This document shows positions 26,910-58,111 of a stretch of 64,000 nucleotides of DNA, piece by piece. The number at the start of each line of letters is the position of its first letter. Position 1 is the stretch's first letter. Source of the stretch: Centroberyx gerrardi (taxonomy: Eukaryota > Chordata > Actinopteri > Beryciformes > Berycidae); the NCBI RefSeq assembly GCF_048128805.1, contig NC_136005.1:15079760-15143759 (forward strand). The letters run 5' to 3'. The translations under genes and the position numbers were made by a program. The notes beneath the pieces are model-generated. The model saw only the letters and a program-made list of their open reading frames with translations, had not been told where the DNA came from and did not search any database.

Positions 26910-27237
26910 CCTTCTTGCCCTATCCAGCTCTTCTCGTGGTACAGATGTGTATCTTGACATGCCCAACATGAAATATCTGCCAGACAATATCTGCCAAATG
27001 CCACACATTTTTGAAGATTTTGAAAAAACATGAAAAATCTTCTAATCATGAATGACACGAAATGTGGCAAGTACATTAAATTGATATACCTTTTCTTAGT
27101 TTGCAAAGCACTAAGGAATTGGTCCAAAATGGCCAAGTTTTTAACCATTAATCACTTTTAAAAAATGCACAGAAAGTTAAACTGACTGTAAAATTACGAC
27201 ATCCAATTGAAATCATCTAATTCAATTCTGAATCTAA

Positions 27238-27255
27238 TACCCACAATGCCTTGCG
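27238..27255 (+). promoter_or_regulatory. ZNF143/Staf-type binding motif upstream of gene D
   Basis: TACCCACAATGCCTTGCG fits all 18 positions of the published Staf-binding-site consensus (YWCCCRNMATSCMYYRCR). The same 18-mer occurs upstream of E and F. It overlaps the likely 3' UTR of C. Confidence 0.55.
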
Positions 27256-27825
27256 GGACAGTCAGGGAACTCAATGCTTTCTTTGTCACATTGTGATAAC
27301 CTGTTCATTGCTGCTACCATCTGTATTTTTGTTTGTAGGGTTAGTTGTTTGTTTGTTTGTTTAGTTTTATGTTTGCTAGGCAAGGAACCAAATTATCAAT
27401 AAGCATGAAAACTTCTCTGAAATAGAACTATGCTACAGAAGTCCAACAAACACTATGTAAAACTTAAACTAATGTTGTAAAATGAAACCACTACCTCATC
27501 AAGAAATCAGGGAAGTGGAAATTAATTTTCTACTAGCTAGTGAAACACTTCCATATGCAATTTGAGCTGCAGAGAAATGTGAAATGGAAAAGCAATCTTC
27601 CAATGCAACTGCACTGAAAAATGGCCATATCAGGCATGCCAGGGATGTTCAGTTCAACAAGGACCTAATGAAAATACTACAGCCTTTTAACCTTTTGACA
27701 ACCTTTTGACAAGTATAAAAACTATGAAAGAAAAATGTTGAATTTGCCAGTCATTATATTGATTGTGTAAACGTGGATTAGCCTCCATTAAATGAATGAC
27801 ATCTGCAATGAAACTAAAGTGCTCT

Positions 27826-27831
27826 AATAAA
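27826..27831 (+). terminator. Candidate poly(A) signal of gene C
   Basis: AATAAA within CTCTAATAAAGCATATC, the first good signal found downstream of the stop codon of C. Confidence 0.5.
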
Positions 27832-28581
27832 GCATATCTTGTTTTTATGCAGTAATTACAGATGCTTTTTGTGTACTATGATACTTTGCACCAAAATATG
27901 TAGGCACTCCTGTAAACTTTGCACCCTTTAATGATGCTTAATGATGGGTAACTAGCTCTGCAGGCTAAGAAGACTACCACCAATGTTGTGTGTTTGAAGC
28001 CATGTCTTGATGTTTGTCACGTTACTCCCCCTCTCTTTTTCCCCCATCTCTTTTGTCACTCTCCATTTAATAGTTTATAATAAAAAAAAAAAACTTGAAA
28101 ATAATCTTGAAAAATATCCCTCATAACACATGAATGACTTTCACCATTTGAACAAAAATAGATCTGTGACAGATTACATACTATTACCCTGAGAGGTTTT
28201 TTTTCTGTTTTCTTAGAGATAGTTCGTTTTTTGTTTGTCTTGGAAACCAAAATGTTTCCATACAACTCCATACAATGGACCAGTTAAGCTCCTTTCATTC
28301 CCACGCTCCTCTCAAACTGCACTCTGCAATGTTTATTTTACACTGTTTACTTTGACATTGATTAACATCCAAACTCTGTCTCACATCACATAGTTAATGT
28401 TTTATCTTTATCTTGCATTTATACATTTCCAATCACATTTTTTCATATTGCTGTGCTGAGAATGTCGCTGCTTATGAATGATGCTCAGCATGTTGTTTAT
28501 GTTTCAGCATAATAATAATTATTTAGGTATTTAAATATCATTACTCAGTCCTGTCATATGAAGGAGATCGATGTCCAGTCC

Positions 28582-28639
28582 TGTTTATCAACGGGTAGGT
28601 AGGTGTGGTCTGTTTATCAACGGGTAGGTAGGTGTGGTC
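28582..28639 (+). promoter_or_regulatory. Perfect 29-bp tandem duplication in the gene D promoter, with FOXA-like motif
   Basis: Two identical 29-base units (28582-28610 and 28611-28639), each starting TGTTTATCAACGGG, about 230-285 bp before the ATG of D. E and F have one unit only, with a small difference (GGGATAAGTAGG). TGTTTAT fits the forkhead/FOXA core, common in liver promoters; actual binding is inference. Confidence 0.6.
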
Positions 28640-28865
28640 TGTAGTTGGTTATGTAAGGCTGTGGCATTGATTCTGAGCACCTTTGCACAGACTTTGAACT
28701 CAGAGTTAGTTTCTGATTTTTCTATTTTTTTCTATTCAATTCTGTATTATATTATCAGCTGTGAACAAGCATTTCCACCCACAGGTGCATCGACAACGAC
28801 AGCAGAAAAACAGGAAGAGCGACATTTTCCACACTGGTCAGCTGTTGGTCTGGCTCTGCTTAACC

Positions 28866-31800
28866 ATGTGGCTTTATAACATTTTGTTGGGGCTTGACCT
28901 CAAGGCGATACTGCTGTTTATTTTGTTGTTCCTCCTGATAGCCGATTTCCTCAGAAACAGGAATCCTCCAAACTATCCTCCAGGTCCGCTGGCTCTCCCG
29001 CTTGTGGGTAACTTCTTCAGTGTTGACACAAAACAGCCTCACATTTATTTTACAAAGGTAAGCTTTTTAACTAGAGAGGTTTTACCTTGGGACACTTGTA
29101 AACTATGAGACCTATTAAGGATAAAAGACTCAAAATCATAATGGAATTTCTAAATGCTTTAATTTTATAGTTTAGATTTAACTTTTCAAATTGCTGTCTC
29201 ATCTTTTCTGGTTCTCTTTTTTCAATTTTGCTATTCAGACTTTCTTTTTTACATTTACATTTTATTGTGACATTATTCCAAGAAGGCCAGTAAATAATAA
29301 CTATCATTTAGCTTAAAGTCAAGACCATTAACAGCAACAACAACTGGAACACCTCTGAAGAGTTTTGGAGATGCTGCCTTTAGCCACTACGCCCCGAAAA
29401 TGTGGAACACCCGACCTTTAAATATTAGACAGTCATTAGTGGACAGTTTTAAACAGCTCAAAACTTTTCTTTTTACTATAGCCTATAACTAGCAGTTGTC
29501 TGTTTTAAATCTTTAATTATTTTCCCTATCTAATCTTTTATTTATTAACTTTATTTATCATTCTATTTTGTATTTTGTCTTCTCTTTCTTTCCAAAAAAA
29601 TTGTTTTAAATGCTATATTATTAATAGCAATTAATTAATAATAATTGCTATTTTATTTTCTTCCCCTTCCTTGTGCATGTGTGTGTTTTTAAACTTGCTG
29701 CTGAATTGTAAAGCACTTTGAGCTGCATTCTGTGCATGAAAGGTACTATATAAATAAAGTTCATCCATTAATTAATTCATTTAAACTGATTGGATAATAA
29801 GCAGCAAATGACAGGATAATTTGAATGAAGTAGAACCAAAGAGATGTAGCCTTAACTGATTAGGTGGGAAGAGGTGGAGAAGGGGTAGAGGGAATGGATT
29901 TGAGTGAAGTATAGTCTTCCTGCCTGAACTTATGCTTAAGTTTCATTTAACTATTATTAAATTGTTCAGGTGCTTTAGGAGATATGAGGATGTATTCAAC
30001 CTTTTGATATTCTTTATGCATTTTTAAAGGTATTTCACATTTATTCTTAATTTTTGTCCCATAGAAACAAATGGCGAATACTGACATTGGGTGGTCAAAT
30101 TGTAACACAAAGGGAAAAAAAATAACTTCTGAGCTAAACTCTAACTTTTCATGCTGAAGCAAGCACACTTCCAGCTGCTAGCCCATACATTTTCTTCAGG
30201 AAATGTTTGTTTTTTGTCATACAATGCAGTAATGTTTGCTGGTTCACCTGTTGGCTCTTCTCTGGTTTAATGTCCACAGCTCGCCGATGTCTATGGAAAT
30301 GTGTTCAGCGTCCGTCTCGGCAGGGATAAGATGGTGTTTCTGTCTGGGTACAAGATGGTGAAGGAAGCCATAGTGACACAGGCTGAGAACTTTGTGGATC
30401 GACCATACAGTTCAATAGCTGATAGGGTTTGCTTAGAATCCACAGGTGAAAATCTCTCTCCCTCCCTACCTCTCCCTCTCTCATGCAGTACAGGATTGAG
30501 TTCCCCTAAGCATTATACTGTGTATTACTTCTCCAGGCATGCCCACAGCTGGTCTGTTCGCAAGCAATGGTGAAACATGGAAGAGACAGCGGCGTTTTGC
30601 CTTGTCTACCTTACGTAGCTTCGGCCTGGGCAAAAGCCTCATGGAACAGTGTATCTGTAAGGAGAGTCGCTACCTACAAGAAGAGATGGAGAAGGAGAAA
30701 GGTAAGAGGTAGTAGTTGTTCGGAAGTTATAATTCAATAGATATGATCGCATCAAATAATGGACTCCTTTCCTCCAGGTGAACCTTTCAACCCAGCAGGC
30801 CTCTTCAACAATGCTGTGTCCAACATAATTTGCCAGTTGGTGATGGGGAGACGGTTTGACTACAACGACCACAACTTCCAGATCATGCTACAGTATCTGT
30901 CTGAAGCCATGCTGCTGCAGGGCTCCGTATGGGGTCTAGTAAGAGAACAATATCCTTTCAATTCAGATTTTTTTTCTTTAGTAGGAAGGGTAGGAGGCTA
31001 ATAAAAGAGGTGCAGCTCTGGTGGGAGCCAATCCTCAGGGGGCCATGTGGTCTCAGAGGCAGAGTATGAGTCGCTACACTGTCCCTGGACACAGATTTAT
31101 TGCCGAAGGTAAAATCAAATGTCATAAATGAAACCAACCTCACTGACTGCTTTCTTCCAAAAGATGTATGAGGCATTCCCTGCAGTGATGAAGCACTTGC
31201 CAGGTCCTCACAACAAAATCTTTACCGACTTAAAGCACTTGGAAGACTTTCTTAGTCAGGAGATAAAGAGACACAAGCAGGACCTGGACCCCAGCAATCC
31301 CCGGGACTACATTGATGCTTTCCTCATGGAAATGGAGAATGTATGTGACCAACTACACTGCACACATGCTGTACAATCGTTGCCCTTTCTGTCTCTTCAA
31401 TTCTCTACTGTATACCTTTTCTCCATTTCTGAAAAGCACAAAGAAGAGTCTGATCTGGGCTTCAATGAGGCCAACCTGGCTCTGTGCTCTCTCGATCTGT
31501 TCCTGGCTGGAACTGAGACCACCTCCACCACTTTGCAGTGGGCCTTGGTTTTCCTCATCAAGCACCCCGATATCCAGAGTAGGTGAAATCCTAAACCCTG
31601 AGCTCACTGTGAAATTGTAAACAAATAATATTTTATAGGATGAGGGTCCGTAGCCTTTGCTTGTTTGGTTTTCTAAAACTTGAATCCTTGAAGTAGTGAG
31701 GTGTTTTAACCTACACATTTTTTTTCCCCCAAAGGACCTCTGAAGGGGTGCTCCACCCAGGAAACTAGCAATAGCCAAAGCTAATAGAAAAAGGGGGAAA

Positions 31801-33622
31801 AAGGTTCAGGACAGCAACTTGAACCCTTTAATCACCCTTATTGGACCACATGTTTCAGATTAATCTACTTCGTCAGCTCATAATACATGAATGAAAGACC
31901 ATGCACATTCAAACGAGATTTACGGATGTAACTTCGGTTCTATGAATTCTGGATGAGAGCCAGAGGCAGTGCTTCACACTGGATGCTATCCCTCTCGCGC
32001 ATGTGCAGATCAAGTGTTATTACCAACAAGGTCATGTGTGACCCTTAATGACGTGGGCCAGCAATGCCCTCCCCCTATATAAGCCCCCATCATCCTGAGG
32101 CATGTCCCTACAGAATCTTCTCACCAAGATTCTGAGTTCCGAGATAAAACACCAACATAAGGTGGGACATCGAGTTGCCGATGTGGCCCATACAAGCTGC
32201 AATATTATACCATCTCGTGAAGACATCATCTGTACTTGGGCACTGGGGCCAGGAAAAAGCATAAAGAAGAGTCTGATCTGGGTTTCAATGAGCCATGGCC
32301 TTAGGACCTCCTCTGGAGTGACAATAAAAGAGGCAACTGGTGGCTCCACAGCCAGCATATGGTCCAGCCAATAGATGCCTGCCTGCATGGAGGTTAGGGC
32401 CTACCATCAGAGTTATGGTGGGAGAGGGACTAGGGGTCTGGCCAGCACCAATGGAGCTCCTCAATAGAGAAGTAGGCACCATGAAAGCGGCAGCTTGTGG
32501 GGCTCGCCTGAGAAAAGCGCTTGTAGAGGCTGATATCACATCGGATATCATCCTCGGAACCGTGCTCAGTTCCACGGGAGTAGGCTCAGATGTGTGGGAA
32601 GCGGACTGTGCCTGCTCCTGTCAGCTCCTGCTGACGATCCTCTTAGGCAGAGGATCGTCAGCTGTGCTCACCACTGGTCTATCCGGTTGTAGATTTATCA
32701 GCAACTCCTTAATGTGCACGGCCTTTCATTTATGTATTGTGCCCTGACAAAGAGGCTTGCTCTGAAACGCTTTGGCCTATAAAGGGGATAGAGCAGCTGA
32801 AGGGATCAAATTGCCATCCTGAACCTTTTTTTCGCAATTGCTATTAGGTTAAATCTGTCTATTTCACTACTTAGAGAAAGTCCAGGCAGAGATAGACAGA
32901 GTGATTGGACAGACCCGCCAGCCCGCTATGGCCGACAGACCCAACATGCCCTACACTGATGCTGTCATCCATGAGATCCAGAGGATGGGAAACATTGTTC
33001 CTCTCAACGCACTCAGGATGGCCGCCAAGGACACAACACTGGGGGGTTACTTCATACCCAAGGTGCATCTACTCAGACTTCAGTCATTCAAGTCTAAACT
33101 GGCTTGGTTTTGCTCATGTTTCTTGGAAAAAATGTGGATTAAGTCAGCCAATGTTGTTGTTGCAGCATTGCTTGGTGTTAACCTCTGGGTCATGTTTAGG
33201 GTACGTCCTTAATGCCCAACCTGACCTCTGTGCTGTTTGACAAGAATGAATGGGAGACTCCAGACACCTTCAACCCTGCACACTTCCTGGATGCTGAGGG
33301 CAAGTTTGTGAGGAGAGAAGCGTTCTTGCCTTTCTCTGCAGGTAAACTAACTTATCCCTAATTGTTAACCTGTTCTGATAAATCTGGAATGTTATGTGAT
33401 CCTGAGCTTATATCCCTACATGTGTATCTGTGTGTGTATTCTTCAGGGAAACGTGTGTGTCTAGGAGAAGGCCTAGCCAAGATGGAGCTGTTCCTGTTTT
33501 TCGTCAGTTTATTCCAGAAGTTCTCTTTCTCCACTCTGGATGGAGTAGAGTTGAGTACAGAAGGGATCGTTGGAATTACACGTACACCTTATCCCTTCAA
33601 GGTCTATGCCAAGGCTCGCTGA
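28866..33622 (+). CDS. CYP2-family cytochrome P450, gene D (complete, 498 aa)
   Basis: Nine coding exons: 28866-29057, 30280-30445, 30549-30701, 30778-30938, 31164-31340, 31437-31578, 32875-33062, 33200-33341 and 33447-33622; 1497 nt, 498 residues. It starts [15 protein letters not shown], with an anchor, [40 protein letters not shown] and [17 protein letters not shown] with haem Cys445. Known roles of the closest families (CYP2J, and fish CYP2N and CYP2P) suggest fatty-acid epoxidation or hydroxylation; the exact subfamily is not decided here. The acceptors of exons 5 (CCAAAAG) and 6 (CTGAAAAG) have lost the pyrimidine-rich end seen in E and F (CCTGTAG, TCAATAG), and exon 5 begins with Met instead of Leu. 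Intron 1 has an L2-like tail and intron 6 a rearranged fold-back element, neither matched in the sister genes. The frame is open throughout. Confidence 0.94.
29345..29790 (+). mobile_element. L2-like LINE 3' end, intron 1 of gene D
   Basis: Contains a coding tail resembling [20 protein letters not shown] and [12 protein letters not shown], then the typical 3' end TGTAAAGCACTTTGAGCTGC and CTATATAAATAAAG. It is absent from intron 1 of E and F. Confidence 0.85.
31801..32828. mobile_element. Fold-back element with a replaced centre, intron 6 of gene D
   Basis: The arms start AGGTTCAGGACAGCAACTTG at 31802 and end with its near-complement at 32828, as in E (39406-39750) and F (45101-45820), so the element predates the D/E/F duplications. 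In D the middle (about 31913-32690) is foreign: it has a CCCCCTATATAAGCCCCC stretch at 32070-32090, unidentified repeat-like sequence and a copy of the start of exon 6. No gene is supported. Confidence 0.65.
32252..32292 (+). pseudogene. Duplicated fragment of CYP2 exon 6 within intron 6 of gene D
   Basis: The 33 bases from 32260 match the first 33 bases of exon 6 of D (31437-31469) at 31 positions, and a GAAAAAG like the exon acceptor precedes them. The match stops abruptly after the Asn-Glu codons. Too short to work as an exon. Confidence 0.7.
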
Positions 33623-33844
33623 CCATGCAAAATCTCACTGAACCCTTTTCATCTAATCAATAATCTAACCAATGATCTGTAACAGAAAACAACTTATGTG
33701 GCAAAACCACCACATAACTACAGTTTGTAATTATGATCCAGGAAAGAGGTTCAACTCTTGCTGAAATTACAAAAATATTTCTTTACTAGCTCATCTTTTA
33801 TCACATCTTTGGCCAATAATTACATAGCAAGTGTATTGTGTTTT

Positions 33845-33960
33845 GTATCTCTTTGTTTTTTATTAGGATCCCCATTCGCTGCCAATTTAATGACAGCTAG
33901 TTTTCCCTTCCTGGGGTCCTCACAAGGAAGCAATACAATAACCTACAAATAATCAATGAT
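33845..33960 (-). mobile_element. LINE 3' tail downstream of gene D
   Basis: The plus strand reads TTTTTATTAGGATCCCCATT followed by a CTGCCAATTTAATGACAGC region, the reverse of a 3' UTR end common in fish LINEs (GGGGATCCTAATAAA). A matching copy lies downstream of E. Confidence 0.55.
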
Positions 33961-34379
33961 AAGATAAGAGAATGCTTAAAATAACAATCGTAATGGAAAA
34001 GGGTAAAGTATCATTATTAATGCAAGATTTTACATACATACATAGATTTAAAAAAAATTACAATCAAGCTTTATTGATCGACCACCAAACATCTATATTA
34101 TACTATACTGACGTTTTCTTATCCACACAAGCTGTGGCAATGTTCCCATGATCAACAAAATAAAACCAAATTTTACAAATGCATTTCCCAATTACAATAC
34201 CAAATATTATGGGTAATAAAAATATGTCTACTGAGGTCTCTCAGAACAAAGAGGTTAAAACTAATGTTAGGACAGAGATCTATGTCACTTATAAAGTCAA
34301 CTGACCTGCACTTTACACATAATAAGAATCATCAGAGATTTTGGAGATATTCATGAACAGTGATGGCTTTTCTTTCAAA

Positions 34380-34780
34380 AATCTGCATAATCTTTTGGTA
34401 GCTATAATGGAAGAAATAAAAAAGGAGAGGTGAACAGAAAATGTGCATACTAGTGGTCAGTTAAATGCTACATGGACATAACCGCAGGATCAAGCTACTT
34501 CTCCACTGACAGAAGCTTCTCTTCATCTTTGAGAAGATTTGGGCTTACAAGGCAGCTTCATGTTTTGTAAGGGAAGAGGAGCTGCATTTTGAGGGGTGTT
34601 AGGCACAGGAGATGGGAGGTGGCTGAAAGCTTTTGTTTTTTCCTCTTTTTTTGTTATGTGTATGTTTTGGTCTGTTTTCAGCTTATTCCTTCTTGCTGTA
34701 TTTGTATTTTCTGTACTCTGTGCTCTTATTTGGTTAATAAAGGGATGTTTCAACTCTCTCTCTCTTGTACTAAGCCACAT
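34380..34780 (+). other. Conserved downstream block ending in a poly(A) signal, copy after D
   Basis: Includes AAAGCTTTTGTTTTTTCCTC and TTGGTTAATAAAGGGATG, with AATAAA at 34736-34741 and a GT-rich stretch after it. Copies follow E (about 41260-41660, signal 41611-41616) and F (about 47870-48215, signal 48183-48188). It may be the end of a 1.1-kb 3' UTR of D and E. The small ORFs in it are not convincing. Confidence 0.5.
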
Positions 34781-34853
34781 GTTGATATGTTGACATTTGA
34801 AGAAAATACAGCCATTTGAACTGTTGTGTTGTGATAATCACAAAGACTCTTAA

Positions 34854-34871
34854 TACCCACAATGCCTTGCG
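34854..34871 (+). promoter_or_regulatory. ZNF143/Staf-type binding motif upstream of gene E
   Basis: Identical 18-mer to that at 27238-27255, about 115 bases after the likely poly(A) signal of gene D. Confidence 0.55.
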
Positions 34872-35314
34872 GGGCAGTCGGGAAACTCTTCTTTCGTTGT
34901 CACACTGTGGTAAGTTGTTAATTGCCACTACGAACTTTATTTTTGTTGGTAATATTGATGTTACTGAGCAAGGAAACAAATAATATTTCACGACACCAGC
35001 ACATGTAGGCTAGATACTTAACCGTTTGGCAAGCATAAAAACTAGTAAAATATTGAATTTGCCAGTCATGATATTGAATCATTAAGCTCCTTTCATTCCC
35101 ACTCTCTTTTTCAATCTGCACTCTGCTCTCTTGTTCACAACGGCATTAACATCCAAGCTCAGATCACATAGTTAATGTTTTATCTTTTGCACTTGTTGAG
35201 AACTGCTCTAAACAACAGTTCAGATCACATTTTATCACATTTCTTCAATGAGAAAGTTGCTGCTCATGATGCTCAGCATGTTGTTTATGTTTCGGCATGA
35301 TAATAATTATTTAG

Positions 35315-36530
35315 GTTTTTATACAACAGTTAGTTCCGGTCGAGCAATTTGATTGGACAAGAGGCATTCCATGAGTGCTGATATACAGTGACCTCAATTA
35401 TGATAACAGCACTGGGACGCTGTACTGTATGTATCACTCCGCTTCACAGCTGTTCTAACCTGTAACCTTGATTAGGATAGCGTTTTTCTGTGTGGAGAAA
35501 GCTCTGCCCGGAGCGCTTCTTGTGAGGAGAAATAAAAAGCGGATCACCACAACGTCATCTGACGTTAGCTGAGTAGCTGGCAAGCTAACCAGCTGGTTAG
35601 CACTTCTAGCAGACAATACAGTGTTGTGCAACAAACAAATGCTTACCAGATATTCCCAGTACACGTCCACACAAAACTCTAACTTAATTCGCACCTAGTA
35701 GCGACAACGCAAATATGGATACTTATTTGCGTTGTCGCTACTAGGTGCGAATTAAGTTAGAGTTTTGTGTGGACGTGTACTGGGAATATCTGGTAAGCAT
35801 TTGTTTGTTGCACAACACTGTATTGTCTGCTAGAAGTGCTAACGCGCTCCGGGCAGAGCTTTCTCCACACAGAAAAACGCTATCCTAATCAAGGTTACAG
35901 GTTAGAACAGCTTCTTGTGAGGAGAAATAAAAAGCGGATCACCACAACGTCATCTGACGTTAGCTGAGTAGCTGGCAAGCTAACCAGCTGGTTAGCACTT
36001 CTAGCAGACAATACAGTGTTGTGCAACAAACAAATGCTTACCAGATATTCCCAGTACACGTCCACACAAAACTCTAACTTAATTCGCACCTAGTAGCGAC
36101 AACGCAAATATGGATACATTTGACCATAATTATGAACGGTCGGCCGAGGCGGAAGATTGGGAAGAAAGTAAGCTGAAATCGTCTGTGCTAACCAAGGAGG
36201 TTCTAACCTAAAAGTACCTAGCTTAGCTAGCTTGCAGTCGGGAAACAGTTTACCTGTTGCTTGGCAACACTTGGTAGTGGAATCCTGAGGGAACTGTTTT
36301 TGTTGGCGGAGACAACAGATAAAAATCATCTGTTGTCTCAAATTACCATTACTTGATGAATAGCTTTGTTTATACAACTGTTGTATAAAAGCAATATCAC
36401 ACTCGAGGTCGTGCTGTTGTACTGTATATCAGCACGGCTGTGATTATCTTCGGCACGAGGCCGCCGACCGAATCACAGCCGTGCTGATGTACAGTACAAC
36501 AGCACTCCCTCTCGTGTGATATTGCTTTAT
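35315..36530. mobile_element. Composite inverted-repeat insertion upstream of gene E
   Basis: The matching 5' flank of F (42178-42190) and of D (about 28530) is uninterrupted, so roughly 1.2 kb was inserted between TTATTTAGGT and ATCATTCAGTCC. TTTATACAACAGTT near 35318 recurs inverted near 36375-36390, suggesting one element with those ends; the fold-back at 36385-36531 follows directly. No transposase is encoded and I cannot name the family. Confidence 0.6.
35448..36117. repeat. x-y-z / inverted z-x / y-z rearrangement
   Basis: Block x (35448-35516), y (35516-35595) and z (35596-35714) are followed, after a 10-base spacer, by inverted z (35725-35843) and inverted x (35844-35910), with y missing, and then by direct y-z (35911-36117). 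The copies are essentially identical. The long inverted arms could form a large hairpin. Confidence 0.9.
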
Positions 36531-36531
36531 C
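36385..36531. repeat. Fold-back palindrome
   Basis: The arm AAAGCAATATCACAC...CAGCACGGCTGTGATT at the left pairs with AATCACAGCCGTGCTG...GTGTGATATTGCTTT at the right, about 60 bp each with few mismatches. A further perfect hairpin, GAGACAACAGAT with its complement, lies just left at about 36309-36340. Confidence 0.85.
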
Positions 36532-36840
36532 ATTCAGTCCTAACTCTGTGAAAGAGATGGATGTCCAGTCCTGTTTATCAACGGGATAAGTAGGTGTGCT
36601 CTGTAGTTGGTTATGCAAGGCCGTGACATTGATTCTGAGCACCTTTGTACAGACATTGACGTCAGTTATTTTAGTATTTTTCTATTTTTTTTTTGTTATG
36701 TAATTTTATTGTATGCAGTCACTGGGTGTGTGAATGGAAGAATTGTACTGTCAAGTGTGAAGAAGCACCCGCAGCAGCAAAAAAACAGGAAGAGCGACAT
36801 TTTCCACACTGGTCAACTGTTGGTCTGGCTCTGCTTAACC

Positions 36841-39800
36841 ATGTGGCTTTATAACATTTTGTTGGGGCTTGACCTCAAGGCGATACTGCTGTTTATTTTG
36901 TTGTTCCTCCTGATCGCCGATTTCCTCAGAAACAGGAATCCTCCAAACTATCCTCCAGGTCCGCTGGCTCTCCCCCTTGTGGGGAACTTCTTCAGTGTTG
37001 ACACAAAACAGCCTCACATTTACTTTACAAAGGTAAGCTTTTTAACTAGAGAGGTTTTACCTTAGGGCCCTTAAACTATGAGAACGATTAAGGATAAAAG
37101 ACTCAAAATCATAATGGAATTGCTAATGCTTTAATTTTAATTTTTATATTTAACTTCTCATTGTAAAAATTACTCTTTCATCTTTCCCAGTTTTCTTGAA
37201 TTTCAGTTTTGCTATTCAGAATTTCATTTTCACATTTACATTTTATTGTGATATTATTCCAAGAAGACCGATAGGCTAAATGATAACTAGCATTTAGCAT
37301 GAAGTAAAGACCATTTACAACAACTAAAGGGTATTTAGTTGTCTAACAAACTGAAAGCTAGGAAACACATGCCATTTTTACTATGTATTACATTATTCTC
37401 TCCAAAACCTTAGCATCTAGCTAGTTCTTCATACCTTCACCTAGACATCTGGTGGTCAAATTGCAAACACACAGGAAAAAATAACCTGTCATGCTGAAGC
37501 AAGCACTTTTCTAGCTGCTAGCCCATACATTATTTTTAGGAAATGTAGTTTTCTTTCAAAAGTTGCCCACCATGTGATGCAGTAATTCTTGCTGATTCAC
37601 CAATGTTGGCTCTTCTCTGGTTTAATGTCCACAGCTTGCCGATGTCTATGGGAATGTGTTCAGCGTCTGTCTTGGCAAGGATAAGATGGTGTTTGTGTCT
37701 GGGTACAAGATGGTGAAGGAAGCCATAGTGACACAGGCTGAGAACTTTGTGGACCGACCCTCCAGTGCAGTGGCTGACAGGATTTATTCAGGAACGTCAG
37801 GTGAAAATCTCTCTCCCTCTGTCTCCCTCCCTACCTCTACCTCTCTCTTGGTGTACAGGAATCAGTTCCTTATACTGTGTATTGCTTCTAAATTATACTG
37901 TGTGCCTTATACTTTGTATTACTTATGCTTGTCCATAGCTGGTCTGTTCGTAAGCAATGGTGAAACATGGAAGAGACAGCGGCGCTTTGCCTTGTCTACC
38001 TTACGTAGCTTCGGCCTGGGCAAAAGCCTCATGGAACAGTGTATCTGTAAGGAGAGTCGCTACCTACAAGAAGAGATGGAGAAGGAGAAAGGTAAGAGGT
38101 AGTAGTTGTTCAGAAGGGGGCGCAGTGGAAAAGAAGCAACACAGAAAACAATTACCGTATAATTCAACAGATATGAGCACATCAAGAAAGTACAGTGGAT
38201 CCTTAAACAAAATGGCACATTTACATTTTAGCTGTTTAGCTGACGCTTTTATCCAGAGAAATTTACAATGAGTATGGGCTCAGATTCCAACATTACAAGC
38301 AACAGCAACAAATGTTCCTAAGCAATGGAATTTTCTGAACTCTGGACTCCTTTCCTCCAGGTGAACCTTTCAACCCAGCAGGCCTCTTCAACAATGCTGT
38401 GTCCAACATAATTTGCCAGTTGGTGATGGGGAGACGGTTTGACTACAACGACCACAACTTCCAGATCATGCTACAGTATCTGTCTGAAGCCATTCTGCTG
38501 GAGGGCTCCGTATGGGGTCAAGTAAGAGAACAATATCCTTTCAATTCAGTCATTGTGTTTGTAAAGTAGATAGAGACATCTCTTCTCTGATTTTTTTTCT
38601 TTAGTAGGAAGGGTAGGAGGGTAAAAAAAGAGCGGCAGCTCTGTTGGTCTATCCTCAGGGGGCCCATGTGGTCTCACAGGCAGAGAATGAGTTGCTACAC
38701 TGTCCCTGGACACAGATTTATTGAAGAAGGTAAAGGCAAATGTCATAAATCAAACCGTCACTTTTCTTCCTGTAGCTGTATGAGGCATTCCCTCAATTGA
38801 TGAAGCATTTGCCAGGCACTCACAACAAAATGTTTAGCCACTACAAGTACTTGGAAGGCTTCGTCAGTCAAGAGATAAAGAGGCACAAGCAGGACCTGGA
38901 CCCCAGCAATCCCCGGGACTACATTGACGCTTTCCTCATGGAAATGGAAAATGTATGTGACCAACTACACTGCACACATGCTGTACAATCGTTGCCCTTT
39001 CTGTCAGTCAAACTACCATTCATTCAATACTGTATATCTTTTCTCCATTTCTCAATAGCACAAAGGAGAGTCTGATCTGGGCTTCAATGAGGCCAACCTG
39101 GCTCTGTGCTCTCTTGATATGTTCCTGGCTGGAACTGAGACCACCTCCACCACTTTGCAGTGGGCCTTTGTTTTCCTCATCAAGTACCCCAATATCCAGG
39201 GTAGGTGAAATCCTAAACCCTGAGCTCACTGTGAAATTGAAAAAAAAATAAATTTGATATGCTTTGCTTATTTGCTTTTATAAAGCTTGAATCCTTGTAG
39301 AAGTGAGGCGCTTTAACCATACAGAATAGTTTTTCCCAAAGGACCCAGAGGACCAAAGGGGTCCTTTGGTCCTCCAGGGAACTAAAACTAATAACAGTGG
39401 GGAAAAAAGGTCAGGACAGGAATTTGATCCCTTATCACCCCATTATCCCATGTGATTCGGTGGAAGCTACTTCATCAGGGCACAACACATAACTGAAAGA
39501 CCATGCACATTAAAACACTCAGGCAGACTTGATTTGAGAAACCGCAACACCTGTCCTGTGTAGGGAGGCAGGGAATGAGAATGCTTCTTTTTGGGAATAG
39601 AAATATACTAGAGATAATGTCTGCCTGCTGTAATGTTTTAATGTGCATGGTCTTTCATTTATGTATTGTGCCCTGACAAAAGAGCTTGCTCTGAAAAGCT
39701 TTGGCCTATAAAGATGATTGATGGGATCAAGTTGCTGTCCTGAACCTTTTTTTCCTAATTGCTATTAGGTTAAATCTGTCTATTTCACTACTTAGAGAAA

Positions 39801-40511
39801 GTCCAGGCAGAGATAGACAGAGTGATTGGACAGACCCGCCAGCCCGCTATGGCCGACAGACCCAACATGCCCTACACTGATGCTGTCATCCATGAGATCC
39901 AGAGGATGGGAAACATTGTTCCTCTCAACGGACTCAGGATGGCCGCCAAGGACACAACACTGGGGGGTTACTTCATACCCAAGGTGCATCTACTCAGACT
40001 TCAGTCATTCAAGTCTAAACTGGCTTGGTTAGTCAGCCAATGTTGTTGTTGCAGCATTGCTTGGTGTTAACCTCTGGGTCGTGTTTAGGGTACGTCCTTG
40101 ATGACCAACCTGACCTCTGTGCTGTTTGACAAGAATGAATGGGAGACTCCAGACACCTTCAACCCTGCACACTTCCTGGATGCTGAGGGCAAGTTTGTGA
40201 GGAGAGAAGCGTTCTTGCCTTTCTCTGCAGGTAAACTAACTTATCCCTAATTGTTAACCTGTTCTGATAAATCTGGAATGTTATGTGATCCTGAGCTTAT
40301 ATCCCTACATGTGTATCTGTGTGTGTGTTCTTCAGGGAAGCGTGTGTGTCTAGGAGAAGGCCTAGCCAAGATGGAGCTGTTCCTGTTTTTCGTCAGTTTA
40401 TTCCAGAAGTTCTCTTTCTCCACTCTGGATGGAGTAGAGTTGAGTACAGAAGGGATCGTTGGAATTACACGTACACCTTATCCCTTCAAGGTCTATGCCA
40501 AGGCTCGCTGA
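36841..40511 (+). CDS. CYP2-family cytochrome P450, gene E (complete, 498 aa; chimera of D and F types)
   Basis: Nine coding exons: 36841-37032, 37635-37800, 37939-38091, 38361-38521, 38776-38952, 39059-39200, 39796-39983, 40089-40230 and 40336-40511; 1497 nt, 498 residues. All P450 landmarks are present: NYPPGP hinge, [23 protein letters not shown] and [12 protein letters not shown] with Cys445. Exons 1-6 and their introns follow gene F (same intron-3 repeat, same GTSG end of exon 2, same 5' promoter block), while the end of exon 9 and the whole 3' flank follow gene D (GITRTPYPF, 1.1 kb of near-identical downstream DNA). Private changes include LPGTHN instead of LPGPHN in exon 5 and Cys for Arg in the exon-2 SVRLG motif. 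The 5' flank carries an inverted-repeat element absent upstream of F. Confidence 0.95.
38213..38295. repeat. Dispersed teleost repeat in intron 3 of gene E
   Basis: Contains TTTAGCTGACGCTTTTATCC and AATTTACAATGAG, a motif very common in fish DNA. The same insertion is in intron 3 of F (about 43979-44060) and absent from D. Confidence 0.6.
39406..39750. mobile_element. Fold-back MITE-like element in intron 6 of gene E
   Basis: Inverted arms of about 120-130 bp: the left reads GGTCAGGACAGG, later GAAAGACCATGCACATTAAA; the right has the complements TTTAATGTGCATGGTCTTTC and GTCCTGAACC. Shared with D and F at the same site. Target duplication not resolved. Confidence 0.75.
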
Positions 40512-40732
40512 CCATGCAAAATCTCAATGAAGCCTTTTCATCTAATCAATAATCTAACCAATGATCTGTAACAGAAAACAACTTATGTGGCAAAACCACC
40601 ACATAACTACAGTTTGTAATTATGATCCAGGAAAGAGGTTCAACAAAAATATTTCTTTACTAGCTCATCTTTTATCACATCTTTGGCCAATAATTACATA
40701 GCAAGTGTATTGTGTTTTGTATCTCTTTTGTT

Positions 40733-40838
40733 TTTTATTAGGATCCCCATTCGCTGCCAATTTAATGACAGCTAGTTTTCCCTTCCTGGGGTCCTCACAA
40801 GGAAGCAATACAATAACCTACAAATAATCAATGATAAG
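40733..40838 (-). mobile_element. LINE 3' tail downstream of gene E
   Basis: Near-identical to the copy at 33845-33960 and in the same place relative to the stop codon, so it was carried along by the duplication that created E. Confidence 0.55.
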
Positions 40839-41259
40839 ATAAGAGAATGCTTAAAATAACAATCGTAATGGAAAAGGGTAAAGTATCATTATTAATGCAA
40901 AATTTTACATACATACATAGATTTTAAGAAAATTACAATCAAGCTTTATTGATCGACCACCAAACATCTATATTATACTATACTGACGTTTTCTTATCCA
41001 CACAAGCTGTGGCAATGTTCCCATGATCAACAAAATAAAACCAAATTTTACAAATGCATTTCCCAATTACAATACCAAATATTATGGGTAATAAAAATAT
41101 GTCTACTGAGGTCTCTCAGAACAAAGAGGTTAAAACTAATGTTAGGACAGAGATCTATGTCACTTATAAAGTCAACTGACCTGCACTTTATACATAATAA
41201 GAATCATCAGAGATTTTGGAGATATTCATGAACAGTGATGGCTTTTCTTTCAAAAATCT

Positions 41260-41660
41260 GCATAATCTTTTGGTAGCTATAAGGGAAGAAATAAAAAAGG
41301 AGAGGTGAACAGAAAATGTGCATACTAGTGGTCAGTTAAATGCTACATGGACATAACCGCAGGATCAAGCTACTTCTCCACTGACAGAAGCTTCTCTTCA
41401 TCTTTGAGAAGATTTGGGCTTACAAGGCAGCTTCATGTTTTGTAAGGGAAGAGGAGCTGCATTTTGAGGGGTGTTAGGCACAGGAGATGGGAGGTGGCTG
41501 AAAGCTTTTGTTTTTTCCTCTTTTTTTGTTATGTGTATGTTTTGGTCTGTTTTCAGCTTATTCCTTCTTGCTGTATTTGTATTTTCTGTACTCTGTGCTC
41601 TTATTTGGTTAATAAAGGGATGTTTCAACTCTCTGTCTTCTACTAAGCCACATGTTGATA
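41260..41660 (+). other. Conserved downstream block ending in a poly(A) signal, copy after E
   Basis: Near-identical to the block after D, 1.1 kb past the stop of E, with AATAAA at 41611-41616. Confidence 0.5.
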
Positions 41661-41726
41661 TGTTGACATTTGAAGAAAATACAGCCATTTGAACTGTTGT
41701 GTTGTGATAATCACAAAGACTCTTAA

Positions 41727-41744
41727 TACCCACAATGCCTTGCG
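41727..41744 (+). promoter_or_regulatory. ZNF143/Staf-type binding motif upstream of gene F
   Basis: Third identical copy, 750 bp upstream of the ATG of F and about 110 bases after the likely poly(A) signal of E. Confidence 0.55.
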
Positions 41745-42493
41745 GGGCAGTCGGGAAACTCTTCTTTCGTTGTCACACTGTGGTAAGTTGTTAATTGCCA
41801 CTACGAACTTTATTTTTGTTGGTAATATTGATGTTACTGAGCAAGGAAACAAATAATATTTCACGACACCAGCACATGTAGGCTAGATACTTAACCGTTT
41901 GGCAAGCATAAAAACTAGTAAAATATTGAATTTGCCAGTCATGATATTGAATCATTAAGCTCATTTCATTCCCACTCTTTCTCAATCTGCACTCTGCTCT
42001 CTTGTTCACAACGGCATTAACATCCAAGCTCAGATCACATAGTTAATGTTTTATCTTTTGCACTTGTTGAGAACTGCTCTAAACAACAGTTCTGATCACA
42101 TTTTATCATATTGCTTGAATGTTGCTGCTCGTGATGCTTAGCATGTTGTTTATGTTTCGGCATAATAATAATTATTTAGGTAGGCTATTTAAATGACAGC
42201 ATGTCCAGTCCTGTTTATCAACGGGATAAGTAGGTGTGGTCTGTAGTTGGTTATGTAAGACCGTGACATTGATTCTGAGCACCTTTGCACAGACTTTGTA
42301 GTCAGTTATTTTATTATTTTTTCTATTACGTAATATTAATTGTACGTAGTCACTGGGTGTGTAAATTTAAGTATTATATTATCAGCTGTGAACAAGCATT
42401 GTCACCTGGCAGGTGCTTCGACGGTGACAGCAGAAAAACAGGAAGAGCGACATTTTCCACACTGGTCAGCTGTTGGTCTGGCTCTGCTTAACC

Positions 42494-45400
42494 ATGTGGC
42501 TTTATAACATTTTGTTGGGGCTTGACCTCAAGGCGATACTGCTGTTTATTTTGTTGTTCCTCCTGATCGCCGATTTCCTCAGAAACAGGAATCCTCCAAA
42601 CTATCCTCCAGGTCCGCTGGCTCTCCCGCTTGTGGGGAACTTCTTCAGTGTTGACACAAAACAGCCTCACATTTATTTTACAAAGGTAAGCTTTTTAACT
42701 AGAGAGGTTTTACCTTAGGACACTTTAGGATAAAAGACTCAAAATCATAATGGAATTGCTAATGCTTTAATTTTAAACTGTAAATTAAACATTTTCAATT
42801 TCATAATTTTCCTAGTTCTCTTTTGAATTTCAGTTTTGCTATTCAGAATTTCATTTTTACATTTACATTTTATTGTGACATTATTCGAAGAAGACCAATA
42901 GCTTAATGATAATTAGCATTTAGCATAAATTCAAGACCAACAACTAACCCTAACCTTTGAACTGTCTGATTAAACCATTTAAATATTATGGCAGTAACAA
43001 CTACACTGAAGGGTTTCTACCAGGTTAATATATATATGTATATAATAATAATAATATATAATATTATGTAGACATTTTTCACTAATGGGTATATTTAGTT
43101 GTCTAACTGAAAGCTAGGAAACTCATGCCAACTTTAAATTGTCTAGTTGCTTTAGAAGATGTGCAGATGGATTCAACCTTTTTGTCCCATAGAAACGAAA
43201 GGGGGATACTGACATCTGGTGGTCAAATTGCAAACACACAGGGGAAAAAAACTCATGCTGAAGCAAGCACTTTTCTAGCAGCTAGCCCATACATTATTTT
43301 CAGGAAATTTACTTTTCTTTCAAAAGTTGCCCACCATGTGATGCAGTAATTCTTGCTGATTCACCAATGTTGGCTCTTCTCTGGTTTAATGTCCACAGCT
43401 CGCCGATGTCTATGGGAATGTGTTCAGCGTCCGTCTTGGCAAGGATAAGATGGTGTTTGTGTCTGGGTACAAGATGGTGAAGGAAGCCATAGTGACACAG
43501 GCTGAGAACTTTGTGGACCGACCCTCCAGTGCAGTGGCTGACAGGATTTATTCAGGAACGTCAGGTGAAAATCTCTCTCCCTCTGTCTCCCTCCCTACCT
43601 CTACCTCTCTCTTGGTGTACAGGAATCAGTTCCTTATACTGTGTATTGCTTCTAAATTATACTGTGTGCCTTATACTTTGTATTACTTATGCTTGTCCAT
43701 AGCTGGTCTGTTCTTGAGCAATGGTGAAACATGGAAGAGACAGCGGCGCTTTGCCTTGTCTACCTTACGTAGCTTCGGCCTGGGCAAAAGCCTCATGGAA
43801 CAGTGTATCTGTAAGGAGAGTCGCTACCTACAAGAAGAGATGGAGAAGGAGAAAGGTAAGAGGTAGTAGTTGTTCAGAAGGGGGCGCAGTGGAAAAGAAG
43901 CAACACAGAAAACAATTACCGTATAATTCAACAGATATGAGCACATCAAGAAAGTACAGTGGATCCTTAAACAAAATGGCACATTTACATTTTAGCTGTT
44001 TAGCTGATGCTTTTATCCAGAGAAATTTACAATGAGTATGGGCTCAGATTCCTACATTACAAGCAACAGCAACAAATGTTCCTAAGCAATGGAATTTTCT
44101 GAACTCTGGACTCCTTTCCTCCAGGTGAACCTTTCAACCCAGCAGGCCTCTTCAACAATGCTGTGTCCAACATAATTTGCCAGTTGGTGATGGGGAGACG
44201 GTTTGACTACAACGACCACAACTTCCAGATCATGCTACAGTATCTGTCTGAAGCCATTCTGCTGGAGGGCTCCGTATGGGGTCAAGTAAGAGAACAATAT
44301 CCTTTCAATTCAGTCATTGTGTTTGTAAAGTAGATAGAGACATCTCTTCTCTGATTTTTTTTCTTTAGTAGGACGGGTAGGTGGGTAAAAAAAAGAGGGG
44401 CAGCTCTGTTGGTCTATCCTCAGGGGGCCCATGTGGTCTCACAGGCAGAGAATGAGTTGCTACACTGTCCCTGGACACAGATTTATTGAAGAAGGTAAAG
44501 GCAAATGTCATAAATCAAACCAACGTCACTTTTCTTCCTGTAGCTGTATGAGGCATTCCCTCAATTGATGAAGCATTTGCCAGGCCCTCACAACAAAATG
44601 TTTAGCCACTACAAGTACGTGGAAGACTTTCTTAGTCAGGAGATAAAGAGGCACAAGCAGAACCTGGACCCCAGCAATCCCCGGGACTACATTGATGCTT
44701 TCGTCATGGAAATGGAGAATGTATGTGACCAACTACACTGCACACATGCTGTACAATCGTTGCCCTTTCGGTTAGTTCATTCACTACTATATATCTTCTC
44801 CATTTTGCAATAGCACAAAGAAGTCTACAAGAAGTCTGATGTGGGCTTCAATGAGGCCAACCTGGCTCTGTGCTCTCTCGATCTGTTCCTGGCTGGAACT
44901 GAGACCACCTCCACCACTTTGCAGTGGGCCTTTGTTTTCCTCATCAAGTACCCCGATATCCAGAGTAGGTGAAATCCTAAACCCTGAGCTCACTGTGAAA
45001 TTGTAACCAAAATATATCAATAAAAATTTACATGCTTTGCTTGTCCTTGTAGTAGTGAGGCGCTTTGTCCTTACAGAATAGTTTTTCCTAAAGCACCAAA
45101 AGGTTCAGGACAGCAACTTGATCCCTTCAATCACCCTATTATACCATGTGATTCGGTGGAAGCTACTTAATCAGGGCATAGTACATGAATGAAAGACCAT
45201 GCACATTATAAAACTCCAGCAGGCAGACTTGATTTGAGAAACAGCAACACCTGTCCTGTGTAGGGAGGCAGGGAAAGAGAATACTACTGTTTGGGAATAG
45301 AAATAGATAGAGAGAAAGTCTGCCTGCTGGAATGTTTTAATGTGCATGGTCTTTCATTCACGTATTGTGCTAGGGCTGAACGATTTTGAAAAAATATCTA

Positions 45401-46581
45401 ATTGCGATTATTTTGACTGATATTGCAATTGCGATATGATTTGTGATATTAGAGGAAATGATAATTTTTACATCATTATTCTCATTTTCATTGAAAAACA
45501 TATTAAAATGATTATGGTGTGATTTTTGCGGGGATCTGTACCAAACAAAGATGTTTTCTTAAGTCTGTAGAATATGATGTGTAGGCCAGGACATCTCTGC
45601 AGCACGACAATATTTAATTTAAAATGGTATTTTGACACACATATATTAACAAATATTGCGCCTCCTGTGATTTGAAAATTGCAGTAGGCCATATTGCGAT
45701 TTCGATAAAATTTCAATTAATTGTTCAGCCCTATATTGTGCCCTGACAAAAGAGCTTGCTCTGAAAAGCTTTGGCCAATAAAGATGATTGATGGGATCAA
45801 GTTGCTGTCCTGAACCTTTTTTTCCTAATTGCTATTAGGTTAAATCCTTCTATTTCACTACTTAGAGAAAGTCCAGGCAGAGATAGACAGAGTGATTGGA
45901 CAGACCCGCCAGCCCACTATGGCCGACAGACCCAACATGCCCTACACTGATGCTGTCATCCATGAGATCCAGAGGATGGGAAACATTGTTCCTCTCAACG
46001 GACTCAGGATGGCCGCCAAGGACACAACACTGGGGGGTTACTTCATACCCAAGGTGCATCTACTCAGACTTCAGTCATTCAAGTCTAAACTGGCTTGGTT
46101 AGTCAGCCAATGTTGTTGTTGCAGCATTGCTTGGTGTTAACCTCTGGGTTGTGTTTAGGGTACGTCCTTAATGCCCAACCTGACCTCTGTGCTGTTTGAC
46201 AAGAATGAATGGGAGACTCCAGACACCTTCAACCCTGCACACTTCCTGGATGCTGAGGGCAAGTTTGTGAGGAGAGAAGCGTTCTTGCCTTTCTCTGCAG
46301 GTAAACTAACTTATCCCTAATTGTTAACCTGTTCTGATAAATCTGGAATGTTATGTGATCCTGAGCTTATATCCCTACATGTGTATCTGTGTGTGTGTTC
46401 TTCAGGGAAGCGTGTGTGTCTAGGAGAAGGCCTAGCCAAGATGGAGCTGTTCCTGTTTTTCGTCAGTTTATTCCAGAAGTTCTCTTTCTCCACTCTGGAT
46501 GGAGTAGAGTTGAGTACAGAAGGGATCGTTGGTGCTACACGCATACCGTATCCCTTCAAGGTCTATGCCAAGGCTCGCTGA
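42494..46581 (+). CDS. CYP2-family cytochrome P450, gene F (complete, 501 aa)
   Basis: Nine coding exons: 42494-42685, 43399-43564, 43703-43855, 44125-44285, 44544-44720, 44814-44964, 45866-46053, 46159-46300 and 46406-46581; 1506 nt, 501 residues. Same domain order as D and E, with [17 protein letters not shown] and [12 protein letters not shown] around haem Cys448. Exon 6 is nine bases longer than in every paralog: it reads [12 protein letters not shown] where D reads HKEESDLGF, apparently from a short tandem duplication of an AAGAAGTCT unit, just before the I-helix. The C-terminus ends [16 protein letters not shown], unlike D and E. Intron 6 contains a young hAT-type MITE lacking in E. A poly(A) signal AATAAA lies at 46757-46762, 176 bases past the stop. 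Confidence 0.95.
43028..43068. repeat. TA/TAA microsatellite
   Basis: AT-only tract of TATATATG and TAATAA units in intron 1 of gene F; not present in E. Confidence 0.85.
43979..44060. repeat. Dispersed teleost repeat in intron 3 of gene F
   Basis: Counterpart of 38213-38295 with one or two differences (TTTAGCTGATGCTTTTATCC). Confidence 0.6.
45101..45820. mobile_element. Fold-back MITE-like element in intron 6 of gene F, split by a hAT MITE
   Basis: Same element as in E, from AGGTTCAGGACAGCAACTTG to its complement near 45817, enlarged by the nested insertion at 45371-45733. Confidence 0.75.
45371..45733. mobile_element. hAT-type MITE (363 bp), gene F only
   Basis: The ends are TAGGGCTGAACGATT and, on the reverse of the right end, TAGGGCTGAACAATT. 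The 8-bp duplication TATTGTGC is perfect at 45363-45370 and 45734-45741. Gene E shows the unfilled site (GTATTGTGCCCTGAC at 39663-39677). AT-rich interior with no ORF. Confidence 0.93.
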
Positions 46582-52300: not shown

Positions 52301-53884
52301 TGACAAAGATCTTATTTCCACATTCTCCTATTTTTTTTAAACTCTGGGATTGTCCAAGCAACCAGTGCATAATGTGCTCATGTCTATGTATATAGACGTG
52401 TATGTGTATGTATAGCCATACAAGACTATCATCATACCTGAGTTGTCATACACTGCCCAACTTAAATTTGGGTTTAGAAAGAAGTCAGTTTAATTGATCC
52501 AATTAAAAACTAACTTCTATTTCACTACCTAGACAAAGTCCAGGCAGAGATAGACAGAGTGATTGGACAGACCCGCCAGCCCACTATGGCCGACAGACCC
52601 AACATGCCCTACACTGATGCTGTCATCCATGAGATCCAGAGGATGGGAAACATTGTTCCTCTCAACGGACTCAGGATGGCCGCCAAGGACACAACACTGG
52701 GGGGTTACTTCATACCCAAGGTGCATCTACTCAGACTTCAGTCATTGAAGTAGTCTAAACTGGCTTGGTTGTGTCCATGTTCCATGTTTCTTGGAAAACA
52801 ACATGGCATCTTGTACGTGGGGAATGTCAGCCAGTGTTGCTGCTGCAAATATTGTACCTGTCAACATACTCAGGGTGAACACAACACTGGGAGGTTGCTT
52901 TATACCAAAAGTATTTATGTGCATGCATAAGTCAATAGTTGTTTTATTGCTGTTGGTTGAAGAGTATTCTGACACTTAAAATTCTCCTGAAATAGTCGAG
53001 ACAATAAGAATATTTCACGACACATAATTGTTGATTCACTGAGGTTACAAAACTATGGGCAGCGTAGTCACATAACCTGATAAACACAATACTGCCTGTG
53101 TCATCCTTTCAGCAGTGACCCTGTGACTATAAGCCATCTCTTTACTGTGTTAACACCAGCTTGTTGACTTGACCCAGTCACCAATGTATGACTGCACTCA
53201 AACAGCTGAACTGGTTTCCTATCCCTGTAGTATTTTGTAAGAAAAAAAAAACATTCTACATAAAAGTTGCTGGAGGATTACCATCAAATTTGTGCTTCCT
53301 TGCTGTAAATACAAACCAGGAGGTTGAGTGTTTTCTTGTGTGGTGTGTAGGGAACCTCTTTGATGCCCAACCTGACCTCTGTGCTGTTTGACAAGCATGA
53401 ATGGGAGACTCCAGACACCTTCAACCCTGCACACTTCCTGGATGCCGACGGCAAGTTTGTGAGGAGGGACGCTTTCTTGCCTTTCTCTGCAGGTAATTTT
53501 GACATTAAACTGAAAACTTAGACCTTGATTTAATACTGAACTAACCCCAACCACTCTGTAGAAACTGACCATGAGGAATAAAGTGATGCAGGTTATAGAA
53601 AAGATGTAGTAGATGTGTGTCTGTGGATGCATAGTGAGAGTATGCTGAGAGGGTAAGACACATTTTCACGACCCTAGCCTCCTTTTGCATTTTGTTTGTT
53701 TTCCCCAGGAAAGCGTGCATGTCTGGGAGAGGGCCTGGCAAGAATGGAGCTGTTCTTGTTTTTCGTCAGTTTATTCCAGAAGTTCTCTTTCTCCACTCTG
53801 GAGGGAGTAGAGCTGAGGACAGAGGGGATCATCGGAGCCACACGCACACCGCACCCCTTCAAGATCTACACCAAGGCCCGCTGA
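48360..53884 (+). CDS. CYP2-family cytochrome P450, gene G (complete, 497 aa)
   Basis: Nine coding exons: 48360-48551, 49162-49327, 49460-49612, 49721-49881, 50583-50756, 51654-51795, 52533-52720, 53351-53492 and 53709-53884; 1494 nt, 497 residues. It starts [15 protein letters not shown], with [21 protein letters not shown] (C-helix), [19 protein letters not shown] and [17 protein letters not shown] with haem Cys444. It is the most divergent member of the D-G group through exons 1-6 and is nearest to hook1. Exon 5 is one codon shorter (FLIEEK end). Exon 7 differs from that of F at one of 188 bases while exon 8 differs at 10 of 142, and a relic of another exon 7 lies at 52848-52910, pointing to gene conversion. 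Intron 2 holds a CA repeat. Confidence 0.95.
49352..49386. repeat. CA microsatellite
   Basis: Perfect (CA)n of about 17 units in intron 2 of gene G, 25 bases past the exon-2 donor. Confidence 0.95.
50925..51215. repeat. Dispersed repeat in intron 5 of gene G, related to one in hook1
   Basis: Shares GTTGCACTGCTCTCTATGGG, TTCTGGCCACACCTCA and GGCAAAACAC blocks with 60918-61165. Here it is a single diverged copy rather than a hairpin. Confidence 0.65.
52848..52910 (+). pseudogene. Relic of the 3' end of a CYP2 exon 7, intron 7 of gene G
   Basis: 63 bases in frame encode [21 protein letters not shown], matching [20 protein letters not shown]...IPK of exon 7 with three codons missing, and still followed by a GT. 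It begins 128 bases after the functional exon 7. No acceptor or upstream half of the exon accompanies it. Confidence 0.85.

Positions 53885-58056: not shown

Positions 58057-58111
<55 letters not shown>

Follow-up and report, generated by a model that had tools for sequence, protein, structure and literature searches.

Tandem CYP2 genes and a duplicated upstream block

The 64-kb stretch of Centroberyx gerrardi DNA analyzed here (the window) maps to C9:15079760-15143759 in a 779 Mb assembly of 278 contigs. It contains D, E, and F, which exon tables and translations identify as tandem nine-exon CYP2 genes with intact frames. Our subject is the middle gene, E, which an initial annotation described as an unequal-crossover chimera of D-type and F-type genes with a single switch in exon 9. 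The mosaic of E is real, but it is something other than the product of a single D x F crossover. E represents a separate, older lineage that has a copy, E', in a duplicated block upstream, and its divergence from F rises and falls in blocks: 15.4% in intron 1, 0.8% from exon 2 to intron 4, 8.0% from exon 5 to intron 6, and 0.6% from exon 7 to position 40462. The comparison covers the assembly of one genome of a single species.

The protein of E, the one protein scanned, matches the Pfam p450 family PF00067 over residues 38-493 with an E-value of 1.1e-137. Among its relatives of solved structure, CYP2 members make up 38 of the 39 listed at an E-value of 1e-80, and CYP2B4 is the best match.

The annotation was right about the order D, flank, E, same flank, F, with 33135-35316 and 40026-42181 being 97.7% identical. 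What changes the plausible crossover story is the presence of nearer paralogs in the same assembly: an exon-9 probe found two further close copies, D' and E', upstream and outside the 64-kb stretch, and a large tandem duplication is seen in the 223 kb of contig read around the locus. The genes and intervals are listed below, in window positions unless marked C9.

28866..33622, plus strand: gene D, CYP2 type, 9 exons, 498 amino acids, frame intact (exon table and translation); donor type for the 3' flank of E
33623..35316, plus strand: 3' flank of D, donor-type copy of the tract (sequence comparison)
35317..36560, plus strand: extra 1.24 kb in the D-E interval, missing from the E-F interval (sequence comparison)
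36841..40511, plus strand: gene E, CYP2 type, mosaic, 9 exons, 498 amino acids, frame intact (exon table and translation)
42494..46581, plus strand: gene F, CYP2 type, 9 exons, 501 amino acids, frame intact
C9:15028089-15034328: D', upstream block, frame intact
C9:15038067-15053750: E', upstream block, frame intact, intron 4 enlarged by about 12 kb

The two blocks run from about -94 kb to -26.5 kb and from about -22 kb to 40 kb in window coordinates. Together they form a mixed array of CYP2 genes, the A-type members lying on the minus strand and C, D, and E on the plus strand; since the A-type genes also repeat one another, the left limit of the duplication is uncertain. Where they were aligned base by base, the blocks differ at 329/34955 positions (0.94%) when two off-diagonal matches are removed, and at 327/34955 when the better of two overlapping matches is taken. 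Window 24094-28939 has only 2 mismatches in 4800 aligned positions against about C9:15023346-15028162, compared with the 0.94% overall, which may reflect very recent exchange between the blocks or an assembly artefact. Self-BLAST of the contig region, with length cut-offs of 150, 250, and 400 bp, showed no copy of F or G in the upstream block.

Genes D, D', E, E', F, and G all have nine exons, an intact frame, and a single terminal stop in every translation; exon 6 of F was taken as 44814-44964, which is 9 bp longer than exon 6 of D and E. The sole run of N in the 223 kb, at window 101001-103241, lies outside all sequence used. The extra DNA in intron 4 of E' (C9:15039607-15051762) was removed before the flank and pattern alignments, as were the inserts in intron 1 of D' and in the flanks of D' and E'. 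Site-pattern counts use gap-free two-state columns only, all others being dropped, and the 3' flank of F is represented by four pieces in the pattern counts, break tests, trees, and shared-column count. Each shuffle test had 2000 shuffles, so that the lowest possible p is 5e-4.

Mosaic stretches of gene E and its 3' flank

Trees, maximum-chi-square break tests, and site patterns divide E into the following stretches.

36569..37481, plus strand: own-type stretch of E, comprising proximal 5' flank, exon 1, and intron 1; near-identical to E', 12-15% from F in non-coding parts; tree joins E,E' at 100/100
37482..38850, plus strand: F-like tract, exon 2 to early exon 5; maximum-chi-square edges from the E-F comparison; tree joins E,F at 100/99
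38851..39660, plus strand: own-type stretch of E, rest of exon 5 to intron 6; tree joins E,E' at 100/99.9, with E,F rejected (p 4.8e-4)
39663..40462, plus strand: homogenised stretch with the end of intron 6, exons 7 and 8, most of exon 9, and introns 7 and 8; near-identical in D, D', E, E', and F
40341..40563, plus strand: interval containing the left edge of the D-like tract; alternating markers
40564..42092, plus strand: D-like tract in the 3' flank of E, with its right edge at about 41,960-42,092 (site patterns, maximum-chi-square, tree)

The annotation had E agreeing with F from its 5' flank onward, and this did not hold. E and F differ at 31/262 positions in the 5' flank (11.8%) and at 87/564 in intron 1 (15.4%), where D and E differ at 124/564 (22%) and E and E' at 0/598. 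Site patterns over the 5' flank and intron 1 unite E and F against D and D' at 65 sites and D and F against E and E' at 61, with F alone at 32, so that E is no closer to F here than D is; no outgroup roots the three lineages D, E, and F in this region, and the tree is uninformative on which are sisters. Some characters are nevertheless common to E and F, namely the promoter sequence GGGATAAGTAGG, about 30 bp that D lacks, the long intron 3, and the short intron 7 with its 32-bp gap.

From exon 2 the relationship changes. Two runs of the break test gave E-F mismatches of 10/1067 and 10/1251 inside the F-like tract against 116/869 and 73/852 outside it, both edges having p 5e-4, and exon 2 to intron 4 differs at only 9/1141 positions (0.8%). 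The tree of 37482-38850 places E with F and E' outside, and a clade of E and E' is rejected (p 0.006). Between exon 5 and intron 6 the affinity returns to E', with E and E' joined by 24 sites and E and F by 4, and an E-F divergence of 8.0% (74/927). The D-E value for intron 6 (32%) is inflated, as D intron 6 has sequence missing from E. At 32260-32295, D intron 6 also contains a short sequence that nearly repeats the beginning of exon 6.

Exons 7 and 8 with introns 7 and 8 differ by 0-4% between any two of the five copies, intron 8 having changes private to E', and E and F differ by 0.6% (4/667) from exon 7 to 40462. The tree of 39661-40511 gives no resolution (E,F at 56/35). A D-like patch that had been proposed at 39771-39850 comes down to three sites: at 39777 and 39778 the state of D and E is also that of E', with D' in the F state, and at 39846 D and E share a state that D', E', and F do not have. 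The sequence GGGAAGCG likewise fails as a diagnostic character, since D' also has G there and D and E' have A.

E parts from F at 40462, where the maximum-chi-square break has 4/667 mismatches before and 30/208 after, in keeping with the switch to D-like sequence that had been placed from 40463 on. The exon-9 tail beyond this point is not specific to D, however, as the tail of E' is the same as in D, D', and E except for one synonymous base at 40472, and F shares the state of gene G at the diagnostic bases. The supposed D marker GGAATTACACG is thus present in E' too, with F and G differing. Because E' has the D-type tail, the exchange of the exon-9 tail should predate the duplication of the block. 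D, D', E, and E' encode the same exon-9 peptide, and the D-like tract thus alters the 3' untranslated region (UTR) and flank without making a protein chimera.

The tract that sets E apart from E' is marked on its left side by an E-E' break at about 40516 (11/709 before, 152/1149 after; p 5e-4). Compared with E', E is D-like at 40472, a base it has in common with D alone, and at a 1-bp indel at 40512, E'-like at 40527 and 40532, and D-like from 40564 onward. The alternating markers place the left edge only to 40341-40563. A break at 40533-40563, after the stop codon, was considered and dropped given the D-like characters at 40472 and 40512, and because of these same characters the edge may lie in the interval proposed by the annotation, 40341-40462, or as far on as 40563.

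As far as about 42,090, E differs from D at 12/1580 positions and from E' by 13%. Over the whole 3' flank D and E differ at 19/1669, with 9 of these in the last 227 bp, compared with 13/1684 for D and D' and 152/1154 for E and E'. The right edge is visible as a change from 8/1426 E-D differences in 40533-41959 to 9/222 in 41960-42181 (Fisher p 1.1e-4), with the maximum-chi-square edge at 42092 (p 5e-4). In the tree of 40564-41859, D and E group at 92/93, and the clades E,E' (p 0.029) and D,D' (p 0.026) are both rejected. Of the flank sites that can be polarised by E', 5 group D with E to the exclusion of D', 2 group D with D' to the exclusion of E, and 1 groups D' with E; the two joining D and D' are at the left edge (33638 and 33643, corresponding to 40527 and 40532 of E). 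At six flank sites E' agrees with F against D, D', and E. Since the polarised sites mostly unite D and E against D', the transfer looks younger than the block duplication, with the neighbouring D as its source. The exon-9 switch and the D-like flank are therefore probably separate events, the former being present in E' and the latter appearing younger than the block duplication. No third gene with the E' flank was found among the matches listed for the genome.

Hexamers resembling poly-A signals lie 523, 579, 779, and 1100 bp 3' of the stop codon in E and 537, 593, 793, and 1114 bp 3' of it in D.

Proposed repeated conversion and competing histories

We propose that E is a member of the CYP2 array with its own lineage, patched by repeated interlocus gene conversion, a reading to which we assign a probability of about 0.62. 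The mark of such conversion, a high-identity tract between diverged sequence, was found both in the E-F tract at 37482-38850 and in the E-D tract with edges at about 40516 and 42092. Tandem duplication would first have produced the D-, E-, and F-type genes. Exons 7-9 would then have been homogenised between copies, with the E lineage taking a D-type exon-9 tail, as the tail shared by E, E', D, and D' against F and G suggests. Duplication of a large block containing C, D, and E, which is visible in the assembly, placed D' and E' upstream. Later, about 1.5-1.75 kb on the 3' side of E may have been overwritten from D, a direction and date suggested by comparison with D' and E', and, also after the block duplication, about 1.4 kb over exons 2-5 would have been exchanged between E and F, in either direction.

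Several observations weigh against this history. The alternating markers at the left edge need a patchy tract or homoplasy, and about 1.5 kb across 13% divergence and several indels is long for one conversion tract. The F-like tract is weakly marked when viewed from E', with an E-E' break at 37899 (p 0.0015) and none within 37600-39795 (p 0.42), and in exon 6 E is closer to D (7/142) than to F (11/142). At ten of the sites that tell the flanks of D, D', and E apart, E' has no base to polarise the change, and the 9 sites defining the right edge are among them. E' would suit as the unconverted sister copy of E, but it closes the duplicated block and could owe its flank to the junction; that it kept the original E flank is an argument from parsimony. 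Finally, in 324 shared flank columns E' is closer to D (40 differences) than to F (59).

Because of that last closeness, a history in which the E lineage began long ago with an exon-9 crossover between ancestors of D type and F type keeps a real, though clearly smaller, chance. The flank of E' would then be the diverged D-type flank of the founding event, and later conversion would have replaced the flank of E with D sequence and swapped exons 2-5 between E and F. The D-E' flank divergence of 153/1169 (13.1%) is similar to that between E and F in the 5' flank and intron 1, and the D-type exon-9 tail is present in both E and E'. Against such a founding event, E' has the F and G state of the 40512 indel and shares the six sites with F against D, D', and E; the three flank lineages, with no outgroup and few private changes in D, do not group clearly.

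It is improbable that E is unaltered and E' the recombinant, the block duplication having broken in E' near exons 7-9 and joined the 3' end of a third gene. Block identity does stop between intron 7 and exon 9 of E', and E' is at the end of the block. However, the states at 40527 and 40532, beyond the stop codon, are common to E and E', and the listed genome matches include no closer relative of the E' flank. An older flank shared by D and E would also require a larger divergence than the one observed in the tract, 8/1426, which is not above the 13/1684 between D and D' over the flank.

The crossover originally proposed, in which a D-like and an F-like gene underwent one unequal exchange in exon 9 that produced E and a second copy of the flank, with at most little later conversion, is very unlikely. 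It accounts for the order of genes and flanks, the E-F break at 40462, the D-type tail of E where F and G share another state, and the base at 40472 that E has with D alone. Under it the two copies of the 6.9-kb unit should be diverged to the same degree throughout, and the eight parts of this unit instead differ at 10/1496, 9/222, 31/262, 2/192, 87/564, 9/1141, 74/927, and 4/667 positions (0.67, 4.05, 11.8, 1.0, 15.4, 0.79, 8.0, and 0.6%; chi-square p 1.7e-73, or p 6.2e-55 for the non-coding parts only). This non-uniform divergence, spanning 0.6-15.4%, refutes the crossover in its simple form. In addition, E' has the exon-9 tail without the D flank, the polarised flank sites group D and E against D', trees by stretch change topology along E, and the maximum-chi-square test finds further E-F breaks at about 37,482 and 38,850 and a D-E break at about 42,092 where a single switch had been proposed. 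What survives of the original proposal is non-allelic recombination between these paralogs that put D material on the 3' side of E.

Least likely of all is an assembly artefact in which E or its flank was collapsed or mis-joined, a concern raised by the high similarity of the tandem copies and of the roughly 4.8 kb at 24094-28939, since the contig is 34 Mb long in a 278-contig assembly, the copies carry private substitutions and intact frames, and the mosaic alternates at a 1-kb scale in E, E', and G alike.

Conversion across the array and in other CYP2 clusters

Independently of E, gene G carries a clear conversion patch between more distant genes.

52514..52781, plus strand: exon 7 of G with its edges, a D/E/F-type patch in an otherwise diverged gene (third-position comparison)

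Exon 7 of G differs from that of F at 1/188 positions and at 1/63 third positions, compared with 158/435 third positions in the other eight exons, which differ by 7-28% overall. In another part of the array, intron 3 of E' matches that of D over 76/76 positions, and intron 3 of E and F is 269 bp. We tentatively raise the possibility that exons 7-9, and above all exon 7, are a long-lived hot spot of conversion through which the 3' part of the enzyme moves from copy to copy and reaches even the more distant G, with exons 2, 5, and 6, introns, and 3' UTRs diverging or being swapped separately, so that the enzymes are rebuilt in modules.

A HOOK gene adjoins the array beyond G, with PF05622 matches at C9:15136914-15140388 (window 57155-60629, minus strand). 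HOOK1 is a neighbour of CYP2J2; the word hook1 does not occur in the zebrafish CYP2 cluster paper. With HOOK beside it, the array resembles the tandem CYP2P/2N/2V/2AD cluster of fishes at the CYP2J2-syntenic locus (PMC3012610, PMC5751882). The coding sequences of D, E, F, and G are 1497, 1497, 1506, and 1494 bp long, as are those of killifish CYP2P16-19 (1497), CYP2P20 (1506), and CYP2N23 (1494) (PMC5751882), a likeness of length.

That adjacent CYP2 genes undergo conversion and unequal crossover is already established, and E is a further instance. The closest parallel to its flank is the human allele CYP2A6*1B, described as having a 58-bp conversion from CYP2A7 in the 3' UTR (PMC5748630); in both cases the 3' UTR of a CYP2 gene was overwritten by a neighbour and the coding part left unchanged, although the tract in E is about 1.5 kb and known from the sequence of one fish assembly. 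By analogy with this allele, the D-like 3' UTR of E could possibly affect mRNA stability. In the mammalian CYP2abf cluster, reported as a conversion hot spot in the CHAP study, CYP2A13 has seven conversions (PMC3161012) and resembles E in having several across one gene that touch many exons, the difference being that outgroup species were available there and E is compared with paralogs of one genome. Hybrids, duplications, and deletions of CYP2A6 and CYP2A7 by unequal crossover (CYP2A6*12, *1X2A with a break in intron 8, and *4; PMC5748630) are of the type that the annotation had proposed, an exchange between neighbours within or just past a gene, but as described they have one crossover point each, compared with the several switches in E.

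For fishes, the portions of the literature available mention conversion between linked paralogs of the zebrafish cluster merely as a possibility (PMC3012610), predict recombination for stickleback CYP genes (PMC6912322), and, in the round goby genome, mention conversion solely for opsin and odorant receptor genes (PMC6988351). A search of one literature library did not turn up a report on this locus. The naming of orthologs across fish species often relies on gene trees of tandem P450 genes. Because parts of E give different trees, orthology or expression tests based on the 3' end, such as 3' RNA sequencing or UTR-based quantitative polymerase chain reaction, could confuse D with E.

Within the extra 1.24 kb between D and E, 35910-36527 is a repeat dispersed genome-wide in dozens of copies at about 80-94% identity, and it is present between D' and E' too. 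A near-perfect palindrome of 248 bp occupies 35596-35843, and 35515-35722 recurs exactly at 35910-36117. Elsewhere on the same contig, C9:9196245-9263349 has seven successive exon-7-like matches at 84-86%, which perhaps represent a second CYP2 array.

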